64,000 nt of DNA from Paraflavisolibacter caeni (lineage in GTDB: Bacteria > Bacteroidota > Bacteroidia > Chitinophagales > Chitinophagaceae): the NCBI RefSeq assembly GCF_025628885.1, contig NZ_JAOTIF010000003.1:186001-250000 (forward strand), given 5' to 3'. Position 1 is the first letter of the stretch; the number at the start of each line of letters is the position of its first letter. The notes beneath the pieces are model-generated. The model was not told the origin of the DNA. It was given only the letters and a program-made list of their open reading frames with translations, and searched no databases. Both the position numbers and the translations under genes were made by a program. Positions 4,336-20,563 of this stretch are shown piece after piece.

Positions 4336-5418
4336 ATGAAAAAAGTGCTATTGGCCCTTGCCCTGCTTCCCTCATTATTGTTTGCGCAGACGTCTGGCTT
4401 TGTTCTGAATGGTAAGGTATCAGATTTGCCGGATGGCGCCGAAGTGAAAATTACGGACGCATTCACCAACAACCCGGTCGCTTCCTCAACAGTAAAAGGT
4501 GGAACGTTTACCGTCAAAGGCTCTATTCCTGAACCTGGTTTGTTTTGGATAACCATTGGGAAAGAACAGGCGCAGCATATTTACCTGGAAAATAAGAACA
4601 TCTCAATTACCGGTACTCGTACAGACCTGAAACATATGAAAGTGGAAGGTTCCCAGTCTCATAAAGACTTTGAAGAGTTCCGGGACATTTTCAATCCGTT
4701 GGTTGGTAGCCTCAATGCGACCGCTGCCCAAATTGAAAAAACAGAAAATCAAGCAAAACGTGACGAATTAATGCAGCAATATTTTGCGCTCAGTCAAAAA
4801 GTTAAAGACGAGGTCGCAAAATTCATTGCTTCTAAACCATCATCATTTGTTTCTCCCTTCCTGCTTCACCTGACAGGTCAGTTGATTGACGATGTGAGTG
4901 TAACGGAAAAATATTACAATAGCTTATCTGAGAATGTCAGGAATTCACAAATAGGCAAAGCCCTGGCTGAGCAGATCGCGGAAAGTAAAATTGGTGCTGT
5001 AGGCACTGAAGCCATGGATTTTACCCAAAGCGATCCTGATGGCAAGCCGATTTCACTCTCTTCTTTCCGTGGTAAATATGTCCTGGTTGACTTTTGGGCA
5101 AGTTGGTGTAAACCTTGCCGGATGGAGAATCCTAATGTGGTAAAGGCTTATAATAAGTTTAGTAACAAAAACTTTACTGTTTTCGGCGTTTCTCTCGATA
5201 AAGAAAAGGATTCCTGGGTAAAGGCTATCGAAAAAGACGGACTTGTCTGGCCTCAGGTAAGTGATCTTCAATTCTGGCAAAACAGTGCAGCTGTTTTATA
5301 CCGTGTTCAGGGCATTCCTCAAAACTTCCTGATTGACCCCAACGGAAAGATTGTAGCCAAAAACCTCCGCGGCGAAGAACTCGAATCCAAACTGTGCGAA
5401 TTGCTCGGATGTAATTAA
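4336..5418 (+). CDS. TlpA-like thiol-disulfide oxidoreductase with DUF4369 domain
   Basis: A 360-residue envelope protein. Residues 1-18 form a signal peptide ending LFAQ. A DUF4369-type beta domain (about 20-120) is followed by a helical linker and a C-terminal thioredoxin fold (about 215-358) of the TlpA/AhpC-TSA group with the redox motif WCKPC (C258/C261) and the cis-proline region GIPQNF. Such Bacteroidota proteins are thought to reduce or shuffle disulfides in the periplasm; substrate unknown. It is monocistronic: 104 bp after hisIE and closed by a strong terminator at 5441-5480. Confidence 0.88.
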   Translation: MKKVLLALALLPSLLFAQTSGFVLNGKVSDLPDGAEVKITDAFTNNPVASSTVKGGTFTVKGSIPEPGLFWITIGKEQAQHIYLENKNISITGTRTDLKHMKVEGSQSHKDFEEFRDIFNPLVGSLNATAAQIEKTENQAKRDELMQQYFALSQKVKDEVAKFIASKPSSFVSPFLLHLTGQLIDDVSVTEKYYNSLSENVRNSQIGKALAEQIAESKIGAVGTEAMDFTQSDPDGKPISLSSFRGKYVLVDFWASWCKPCRMENPNVVKAYNKFSNKNFTVFGVSLDKEKDSWVKAIEKDGLVWPQVSDLQFWQNSAAVLYRVQGIPQNFLIDPNGKIVAKNLRGEELESKLCELLGCN

Positions 5419-5440
5419 AAAATAAAAATCTAATTGATAT

Positions 5441-5480
5441 AAAAAAAGGCTGGCTCCTATTTTTGAGCCAGCCTTTTTTT
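5441..5480 (+). terminator. Rho-independent terminator after the TlpA-like gene
   Basis: Perfect stem AAAGGCTGGCTC/GAGCCAGCCTTT with a short AT-rich loop (CTATTTTT), followed by a T run. The A run before the stem makes it potentially bidirectional. Confidence 0.93.
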
Positions 5481-5570
5481 ATATGATTCGCTACCAATGC
5501 TCAACATCCCCAAGCCAAAACCTCCTCGCCTCGCCACCCAATCCCACCATCATTCCCCTCCCTGCTCTTT

Positions 5571-6024
5571 CCGCTTTTGGACGCAAATGACCGGCTATAA
5601 CATGTTTTGTCCGCTCTGGCAGAATCCATCCTTCGTACCTTAAGTATACCTGAAGCATACCATCAGTATACCTAAAGTATACCTAAAGTAGGGCTAGAGT
5701 ATTCCAACAGCATCCCTCCATTCCCCCTACTTCCCCCATACTTACTCCATAGCTAAGCCGTACCATAGCCGTACTTAAGCCTAGGCTAGTTCGACCATCC
5801 TTCGATCATCCTTCGATCATCCTTCGACTATCCTTCGACCATCTTTCGACTATGCTTCGATCTGAATTGAGCAAATGCTCCTAAATATGGGAGGAAAACA
5901 ACCTACAGGCAGAACGCCTTCAATGCCCTGAACGGAGTTAGGTGGAGCTGTGCCTAAAGATACAAAACCAACCCCCACCTTCCAAGTTTTGACCCATCAT
6001 GGTACACTTCCCTTTATTCCTCAT
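5571..6024 (+). repeat. 11-bp-phased repeat element, copy A
   Basis: Gene-free. The segment is homologous, in reverse complement, to 20131-20563. Its core 5643-5862 is exactly 20 consecutive 11-bp units without a single-base slip. The unit sequence drifts from AGTATACCTAA-type (5643-5708) through CCGTACYWWAG-type to ATCCTTCGAYC-type (5797-5862). After the core come a GAGCA-AA-TGCTC hairpin (5869-5880) and a conserved stretch including AACAACCTACAGGCAGAACG. The copies diverge past about 6024. I do not recognise it as a described family. No convincing reading frame is shared by the copies. Confidence 0.85.
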
Positions 6025-6569
6025 TCTAACCCCTTCTCCCTTTCCTCCAATTCACAATTCACGATTGACAATTCACCATTCGCACTTGTCCGCCCCTGGC
6101 GGATTCAATTCATTTGTTATTCCTTCCTCTCATCCGCGCTAAAGCATACCTCCTGTATAGATACTCCCAGGATACTCCCTACCAAAGCCCACCCAAAGCC
6201 CAGGATAAAGTATGAAAATGGCAATTTTTCTCCTTCCTGATCCACTAAATCCTTCAACTCATCCCTCATTACTCATCATTCCTTCCTCACTTCACTTCCA
6301 GATACCTGGCTCCATTTCACCCTTTTATTAATTCCATATAATACCGACTCCCCAATCTTTTTATGCCAGCCCCCAATCTTTCTTACTATCTATTCCTACA
6401 CGCAAACATCCTCTTCCTCCTAATCTCCTTAATCCCTCAAATTCAGGTCTAGGTATCCTTCTAACAAGCTTCAGAAAATCTTAAAAATTTACTCCCAAGT
6501 CCTTTTTCTCCCTTCTTTCATCGTTCAAATCCGCGGTTTCTGGAAATCTGTGGTTAATTTTGCGCCCTT
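6025..6569. other. Gene-free, G-poor pyrimidine-rich stretch with a short 11-bp-phased block
   Basis: No supportable gene. The plus strand is strongly depleted in G and rich in C and T from about 5490 to 6540. It holds AT-rich direct repeats of AATTCAC/ATTGAC type (6050-6080), a small TCCGCC..GGCGGA palindrome (6089-6103) related to the hisA element, and a third 11-bp-phased block of six units at 6141-6206 (for example AAGCCCACCCA followed by AAGCCCAGGAT). Confidence 0.7.
6555..6562 (+). promoter_or_regulatory. Candidate -7 box (TAATTTTG) for mtaB
   Basis: Matches the Bacteroidota -7 motif TAnnTTTG and ends 7 bases before the mtaB ATG at 6570, so initiation would give a transcript with almost no leader. 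No clear -33 TTTG partner is visible. Confidence 0.4.
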
Positions 6570-7844
6570 ATGGATAATCAGCGCACGGTAGCATTTCATA
6601 CATTGGGTTGCAAACTGAATTTTTCAGAAACTTCTATGCTTTCCAGGAGCTTGGAAGCTCAGGGCTTTTTGAAAAAGGAGTTTGAAGAAGAAGCTGATGT
6701 ATATGTCATCAATACTTGTTCTGTTACAGATAATGCAGACAAGGAGTGTCGCCAGATTGTGCGTCGTATTCAACGAAGAGCGCCCCAGAGTATGGTGGTG
6801 ATAACTGGTTGTTATGCACAGTTAAAACCGAAACAGATCGCTGAAATTCCGGGTGTAAACCTCGTATTGGGCGCAAAAGAGAAGTTTAACTTGGCTGCTC
6901 ACTTAAAAGAATTGACAAAAGGGGACTCTGCCAAGATCTCCAGTTGCGATATCGAAGACGTTACCGGTTTCAATGCTTCTTACTCATTGAACGACCGTAC
7001 AAGAACTTTCTTAAAAGTTCAGGACGGCTGCGATTATAACTGTTCCTTCTGCACCATTCCAATGGCTCGTGGTAAAAGCCGCAGCGACAGTATTGCTAAT
7101 GTATTACGTAATGCCCGGGAACTGGCTCAAAATGGTGTAAAAGAAATTGTGCTAACGGGTGTTAACCTTGGCGATTTTGGAAAAGGTCCTGATGGTGCTA
7201 AAAAAAGTGAAGAATCCTTCTTTAGCCTGATTCAAGAACTGGATACTATTGATGGCATTGATCGTTACCGCATTTCTTCTATTGAGCCGAACTTGCTCTC
7301 AAAAGAGATCATAGAGTTTGTGGCAGGTAGCCAAAAATTTATGCCGCATTTTCATATTCCTTTACAAAGCGGTAGCAATGATATACTGAGCCTGATGCGC
7401 CGCCGTTATAAAAGGGAGTTATATGCCGAAAGGGTAGAGGTGATCAAATCATTAATGCCACATTGCGCAATCGGGGTTGATGTAATTGTTGGCTTCCCTG
7501 GCGAAAGTGACAATCATTTCCAGGAAACCTTCAATTTTTTGCATGACCTGGATATTTCTTACCTCCACGTTTTTACCTATTCAGAAAGAGACAATACCAA
7601 AGCGTTAGAAATAAAACCTGTTGTGCCAGTAAACCTCAGGCATGAACGAAATAAGCAATTGCGCAATCTTAGCTATATGAAGATGCAACACTTCACGGAA
7701 CAGCATGTTGGTCAAACGCGGAAAGTATTATTTGAAGGCAGTGAAAAGAACGGCATGATGGAAGGGTATTCCGATAATTACATCCGGATTAGCACGCCTT
7801 ACAAAGTAGAATGGGCAAATAAAATTGTTGATTGGAAAATTTAA
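6570..7844 (+). CDS. mtaB: tRNA t6A37 methylthiotransferase MtaB
   Basis: A 424-residue radical SAM enzyme that adds a methylthio group to N6-threonylcarbamoyladenosine at position 37 of tRNAs. The N-terminal MTTase domain has its three cluster cysteines C14 (HTLGCKLN), C50 (NTCSVT) and C81 (TGCYAQ). The radical SAM domain shows C154, C158 and C161 in the spaced CDYNCSFC motif; a TRAM-like tail (about 370-424) binds tRNA. Length is normal for the MtaB subgroup. It stands alone downstream of the repeat element and just upstream of two tRNA genes. Confidence 0.95.
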   Translation: MDNQRTVAFHTLGCKLNFSETSMLSRSLEAQGFLKKEFEEEADVYVINTCSVTDNADKECRQIVRRIQRRAPQSMVVITGCYAQLKPKQIAEIPGVNLVLGAKEKFNLAAHLKELTKGDSAKISSCDIEDVTGFNASYSLNDRTRTFLKVQDGCDYNCSFCTIPMARGKSRSDSIANVLRNARELAQNGVKEIVLTGVNLGDFGKGPDGAKKSEESFFSLIQELDTIDGIDRYRISSIEPNLLSKEIIEFVAGSQKFMPHFHIPLQSGSNDILSLMRRRYKRELYAERVEVIKSLMPHCAIGVDVIVGFPGESDNHFQETFNFLHDLDISYLHVFTYSERDNTKALEIKPVVPVNLRHERNKQLRNLSYMKMQHFTEQHVGQTRKVLFEGSEKNGMMEGYSDNYIRISTPYKVEWANKIVDWKI

Positions 7845-16951: not shown

Positions 16952-16992
16952 AAGTTTGCAATAAAAGCTGCAAAGGTGCGAAGAAAGTAGGT

Positions 16993-20130: not shown

Positions 20131-20563
20131 AATGACGAATAAAGGGAAGTGTAAAGGGAGGGGGGGCAACACTTGGAAAGTGGGGATTGGTGTTGTACCT
20201 TTAGGCGCAGTTCCATTGCCTCCGTTCAGGGCTTTTCAGGGCGTTCTGCCTGTAGGTTGTTTTCCCCTTATTTATGAGCATTTGCTCAATTCAGATCGAA
20301 GCATAGTCGAAGGATGGTCGAAGGATGATCGAAGGATGGTCGAAGTAGCCTAGCCTTAAGTACGGCTGATGTATACTTAAAGTACGCCTATGGTACGGCT
20401 TAGGTATGGAGTAGGTATCGAGTCAGTATGGAGTAAGTAGAGGGAATGGGGGATGCTGGTGGAATACTTTAGCCCTACTTTAGGTATACTGATGGTATAC
20501 TTATGGTATACTGAAGCTACGAAAGATGAATTGGTTTTGGTGGACAAGACAAGTCAAAAGCGG
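20131..20563 (-). repeat. 11-bp-phased repeat element, copy B (inverted relative to copy A)
   Basis: Reverse complement of the element at 5571-6024. On the plus strand its core 20294-20513 is again exactly 20 units of 11 bp, most starting GTA or GGT (for example GTACGGCTGAT, GTATACTTAAA, GTACGCCTATG). It has five units of the TCGA type against about seven in copy A, and extra GTATGGAGTA-type units. The GAGCATTTGCTC hairpin and the CAGGCAGAACG stretch are also kept. It lies between two minus-strand genes, so relative to flanking transcription it has the same orientation as copy A. Confidence 0.85.

Follow-up and report, generated by a model that had tools for sequence, protein, structure and literature searches.

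A dispersed intergenic element of phased 11-bp words with a promoter-like tail in a Chitinophagaceae genome

REPINs are inverted pairs of REP sequences that are tied to RAYTs. BrickBuilt, from Porphyromonas gingivalis, is presented in its published description as a minisatellite inside a MITE, with 19 copies and a unit of 23 nt (PMC4596501). Heptamer direct repeats (TAACTGA) are reported from intergenic regions of Beggiatoaceae, Cyanobacteria and some Bacteroidetes (PMC4679880). In the original prediction the repeat described here was not recognized as a described family. For its sequence this stands, as we found no 11-bp family of such sequence in the open-licence papers of PMC; its architecture, however, has a close published analogue in BrickBuilt. 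The element is real and little described, and it looks like a small dispersed repeat with a promoter-like tail.

The window analyzed is a stretch of 64,000 nt from the 7-Mb genome of Paraflavisolibacter caeni. Copy A of the element lies on the plus strand, where 1.15 kb separate a TlpA-like gene (4336–5418) from a MiaB/MtaB-type gene (6570–7844), both named from their translations. A terminator-like hairpin (approximately 5440–5482, by eye) stands between the TlpA-like gene and copy A. The 5' cap (CATCCTTCGTACCTT, 5627–5641) is common to cap-1 copies and marks the point at which array homology begins. From the TTCGT of the cap at 5632 to 5861 the sequence can be followed by eye as approximately 21 phased 11-bp words, in register with other copies, and from 5862 to 5991 there is a non-periodic tail (CTGAATTGAGCAAATGCTC ... 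CCAAGTTTTG) that is conserved in an alignment of 39 copies. Over 5643–5862 the lag-11 self-identity is 0.684 (z 13.7), compared with a mean of 0.267 (sd 0.030) under dinucleotide shuffling, and none of 1000 shuffles reaches the observed value. Lags of 22, 33 and 44 come next. With the CTTCGA block removed (leaving 5643–5790) the identity is still 0.642 (z 9.4). No ORF of at least 100 aa overlaps the array, and with the limit lowered to 30 aa no ORF spans it; two short minus-strand ORFs touch its ends only (5491–5658, 55 aa, and 5850–5978, 42 aa). A coding reading is ruled out because no ORF spans the array. The original prediction of a gene-free array with strong lag-11 autocorrelation and three related unit types is thus borne out.

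Other repeats share this intergenic region. A second, shorter 11-bp array on the plus strand (6137–6221), recognized from a period-11 row at 6182–6202, ends in a different tail (AGGATAAAGTATGAAAATGG at 6202–6221), and this tail motif has 14 genome matches at up to two mismatches and none in the reversed control. A palindromic repeat (TTGTCCGCCCCTGGCGGATTC, 6086–6106) has 27 genome-wide matches at up to one mismatch, again with none in the reversed control, and a relative of it seems to stand before the cap in several copies. Phased 7-bp intergenic arrays (CATTCAC and AACTCCA types) occur at 6048–6081, at two further loci, and at many loci of Cnuella takakiae and of a sister species (G015). These arrays often come after the tail, and some form inverted halves in Cnuella.

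Copy B occupies the minus strand of the window, with its cap at 20519–20528, its array at 20295–20524 and its tail at 20167–20294. Lag-11 identity over 20293–20536 is 0.605 (z 11.5), and the 5' half of the array is one base out of register. Copies A and B (5620–6000 and 20163–20532) form one of three copy pairs that lie 13–16 kb apart, each in plus/minus orientation; the others lie at 257542 and 273359 of contig G000:C1 and at 16976 and 30301 of G000:C16. The number of such close pairs is near that expected by chance.

We found 41 tail-bearing copies in this genome, copy A among them. A search with 5620–6000 gave 54 matching pieces and full-length relatives at 76–100% identity, in the best 40 of 111 candidate places. 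A degenerate pattern for the junction of array and tail has 40 exact matches; at up to two mismatches there are 151 versus 20 for the reversed control, an excess that arises partly because a similar motif occurs inside the tail itself. The order of parts is a 5' cap, 11-bp words and a conserved non-periodic tail of approximately 130 bp, which matches the BrickBuilt plan of leader, direct-repeat minisatellite and tail. Array words directly precede the tail in 40 of 41 copies, the remaining one (L052) being a tail only. Along the array the words change gradually, beginning with AGTATACC types, passing over ACTCC and AAGCCGTA types and ending with CTTCGA types before the tail; several copies carry other 5' words (for example CTTATAGAGAC) in the same register. 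The tails can be aligned over approximately 130 bp in 39 of the 41 copies, L052 and L044 having been left out. The ends of the element are not sharp, as different modules come after the tail. A third tail (CACGAAACAGATTTTG-like) follows AGTATACC/AGCATACC arrays at six loci.

All copies but one (40 of 41) are free of overlap with long ORFs, and the element is intergenic as well as short, non-coding and multicopy, as is expected of a MITE. Terminal inverted repeats are absent from copy A (5600–6010), where the only inverted repeat is internal (19 nt, 74%). For the 21 copies in which both ends were recognized, the target-site duplication score is 4.05 versus 3.75 ± 0.23 for re-paired ends, with the true 3' end uncertain. 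Both neighboring genes could be assigned for 37 of the 41 copies, giving 14 divergent, 12 ++, 7 -- and 4 convergent arrangements; in a 400-kb sample the intergenic base pairs are 30% divergent, 33% ++, 25% -- and 13% convergent. As there is no orientation preference beyond these shares, the element was rejected as a regulator of neighboring genes.

The original prediction emphasized exactly 20 units without one inserted or missing base, and proposed that the kept register reflects selection on spacing. The phasing at 11 bp is real, and the intact register holds for copy A; however, the number is incidental. Of 17 aligned copies, 13 have a cap-to-tail length of 187, 198, 209, 220, 231 or 242 bp, which corresponds to 17 to 22 units in steps of 11 bp, so that 20 is not special. 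The 17-copy set derives from 20 of the 41 copies that passed the cap-1 word test, three of which have no recognized cap. One copy (L018) counts as off-register by its length of 221 bp because the match to its altered cap falls one base early; inspected by eye, the copy keeps register.

Insertions and deletions between copies were expected to be multiples of 11, and this is largely but not uniformly the case. Among the 39 copies used for register and pairwise-gap statistics (all but L052 and L046), 93% of the shared ungapped segments (3468 of 3724) fall on diagonals at multiples of 11, and in the 17-copy alignment 201 of 282 pairwise internal gaps have a length divisible by 11. A looser count over 369 of 741 pairs puts 508 gaps at multiples of 11 and 547 at other lengths. 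Many of the 547 look like split 11-bp gaps (for example 4+7), which is not proven gap by gap. Off-register segments come mainly from seven copies (L044, L021, L049, L011, L040, L039 and copy B, L017). The register is strong but not absolute, as approximately 8 of the 39 copies, copy B among them, show a break. Gaps other than multiples of 11 are no rarer in the arrays (9.5 per kb) than gaps are in the tails of the same pairs (8.8 per kb). Because of this and the looser count, the register is no evidence of selection on spacing. Such selection is not required by the data, since whole-word gain and loss by slippage or unequal exchange keeps register by itself, and off-register joins do exist.

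The full element was not found in 97 relatives, with at most 7 candidates scored per genome. Across these and the present genome (98 in all), the only others that match are Cnuella takakiae (G012, record NZ_MTFE01000010.1) and the record of Flaviaesturariibacter sp. RYN_296 (G007), over approximately 30 bp in the array. Among the matches listed, the RYN_296 arrays agree with the window in cap, in phase and in the succession of their words (CTCATA types followed by CTTCGG types), with a similar cap (CATTCGTAG) preceding them and a different tail. The sister species G015 shares 85% identity with the present genome in its mtaB product; BLAST with the element, which scored 7 of 40 candidates there, gives no match. 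None of the 13 relatives with an mtaB ortholog has an 11-bp array (score of at least 17) within the 1.5 kb that precede the gene. Among the mtaB flanks of relatives, the TlpA–mtaB pair was seen to be kept only in Cnuella takakiae, where the gap is approximately 0.4 kb compared with 1.15 kb here. These intergenic regions align too poorly by eye to place an insertion point.

A pattern of three CTTCGR words is found in 10 of 394 genomes of the family, the present one included, and in 81 stretches of GTDB genomes, including Chitinophaga, Opitutae, Bacteroidales and Anaerolineales records. Their similarity to the window element need not reflect common descent. CTTCGGT words phased at 11 bp and followed by their reverse complement make up long inverted arrays at four or more Chitinophaga and three or more Opitutae loci, and so in distant phyla. 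The period of long degenerate arrays in 400-kb samples is 11 in 12 of 18 cases in the present genome, 5 of 22 in G015 (which has three further arrays of period 22), 1 of 27 in Cnuella takakiae and 0 of 9 in another relative (G003). Period 7 accounts for 3, 11, 20 and 5 arrays, respectively. Period 11 is thus the most frequent in the present genome and period 7 in the three relatives; even close relatives differ in this respect, and the difference could be used to study how such arrays arise.

We favor, with a probability of roughly 0.6, the reading that the array forms the minisatellite of a non-coding and non-autonomous dispersed element, consisting of the cap, the 11-bp words and the tail of approximately 130 bp, which has spread between genes in this lineage. 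This reading rests on the copy number, the intergenic position, the common architecture, the variation in length by whole words and the absence from the orthologous site in relatives. The element would spread as a mobile unit through some enzyme, slippage or unequal exchange would add and remove words, and the tail may carry a promoter that transcribes the array on the minus strand. Several observations count against this reading. A search for Y1_Tnp tied no transposase to the element, copy A has no terminal inverted repeats, no target-site duplication signal stands out, and the ends are not sharp. When the 25 of 39 arrays that reach 150 bp under a crude length cutoff are compared with permutations of their words, the actual order folds better (mean z -2.46 on the plus strand and -1.87 on the minus strand), so the word order holds some inverted arrangement. 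Word order thus favors fold-back on both strands, which a plain minisatellite does not need.

The array could instead be a selected scaffold that offers a DNA-binding protein one contact per 11-bp turn, with spacing under selection. The in-register segments described above are consistent with this, and so is the content of the words. Among 168 distinct words, the two columns that carry most information and are kept across word types hold C at position 8 (0.82 bits) and A/T at position 10 (0.79 bits), the next best having 0.58 bits. In three arrays of G015 the corresponding C column is again the highest (1.07 bits), although the register there was set on CYGTA, which favors that column. With this caveat, one word column is best conserved in two species, which leans toward the original proposal, as does the better folding of the actual word order. 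However, no unusual intrinsic curvature is predicted for the array by a wedge model, and curvature as a reading in its own right was rejected on that ground. The register breaks, the frequency of gaps that are not multiples of 11, the variation of word number from 17 to 22 and the lack of a known binding protein also weigh against a scaffold, and we consider it improbable.

Much the same standing is given to the possibility of a multicopy gene for a non-coding RNA on the minus strand, in which a tail promoter transcribes the 11-nt-phased array; this too we regard as unlikely. The evidence for it comes chiefly from the tail. On the minus strand, TACCTTTA or TATCTTTA (TAYCTTTA) is present in 40 of 41 copies, the exception (L044) being cut by a contig end. 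In copy A the box TATCTTTA lies at 5955–5962, reading into the array. A possible -33 element, AACTTGG (5982–5988, minus strand), stands 20 bp before the box in most tails and is nearly unchanged among the box contexts listed. The box resembles the -7 consensus given for sigma-A of Flavobacterium psychrophilum, TAnnTTTG (PMC9723704), although its last base is A rather than the consensus G in all 40 copies. By position and sequence it is promoter-like, and it may alternatively be a conserved end sequence of another kind. In G015, TAYCTTTR follows 6 of 8 sampled arrays (two families of three) on the minus strand, no more than 300 bp downstream, and is absent from the 24 other positions, against a background of 0.024 per 300 nt; however, no -33 element at such spacing was seen there by eye. 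Among 12 sampled period-11 arrays of the present genome the box is downstream-minus in 4 rows, downstream-plus in 2 and upstream-minus in 1. The 4 downstream-minus rows represent three copies (two rows coming from one copy), all with this tail, and other array families are thus without the box. The idea of a regular RNA also draws support from the better folding of the arrays than of shuffles, but 0 of 15 predicted pairs in 17 array copies show two-sided change, and this, together with the stronger folding of the plus strand relative to permutation, disfavors an RNA selected on the minus strand. A structured RNA in the tail was rejected on window-tail folding no better than shuffles (z -0.1) and a weak consensus fold. 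Only tRNAs reach the Rfam gathering score, and with a relaxed E-value the element gives only chance-level matches far below gathering scores. Far less probable than either of these is a REP/REPIN-like origin through a RAYT (Y1_Tnp) transposase. Several CTTCGR stretches of Chitinophaga and Opitutae, among the matches listed, are inverted 11-bp arrays, and a separate palindromic repeat flanks copy A in its intergenic region. However, the element has no terminal palindrome, and the genome, a draft assembly, has no match to Y1_Tnp (PF01797) at E <= 0.001 (8 candidates scored), whereas 5 of 14 control genomes are positive; this absence led us to reject a RAYT origin.

Few bacterial repeats take the form of long, ordered arrays in which diverged 11-bp words stay in register. 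More speculatively still, and with less confidence than for either the scaffold or the RNA gene, the array with its promoter-like tail might give rise, from dozens of loci, to an RNA whose 11-nt period sets each word at one A-form turn, or might present a protein with a contact at every turn. It would then be a scaffold made of words, conserved in vocabulary and phase among species of the family even as the other parts of the element turn over. Should the tail promoter prove active, dozens of repeat loci in the genome would be transcribed and would have escaped annotation pipelines.

Our best reading remains that of a minisatellite-bearing dispersed element, probably BrickBuilt-like, whose array grows and shrinks by whole words. 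REPINs, the subject of PMC3116915, are likewise short, dispersed, intergenic and non-autonomous repeats; they differ in their tie to RAYTs, none of which was found in this genome. The TAACTGA heptamers resemble the element as short phased intergenic repeats that include some long Bacteroidetes arrays and are missing from the shorter intergenic regions of close relatives, but as described they have a 7-bp unit and no conserved tail, and often lie just upstream of start codons (PMC4679880). In comparison with BrickBuilt as published (PMC4596501), the unit is 11 bp rather than 23 nt, and the small inverted-repeat ends reported there were not found here. Promoter activity is reported for the BrickBuilt leader and tail, whereas the element described here has a -7-like box recognized from its sequence. 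Its unit types drift in order along the array, unlike those in the BrickBuilt description, and the likeness drawn here is one of architecture. Both are found in Bacteroidota, and both consist of a leader, imperfect direct repeats and a tail, in multiple intergenic copies with a variable number of repeats (PMC4596501).
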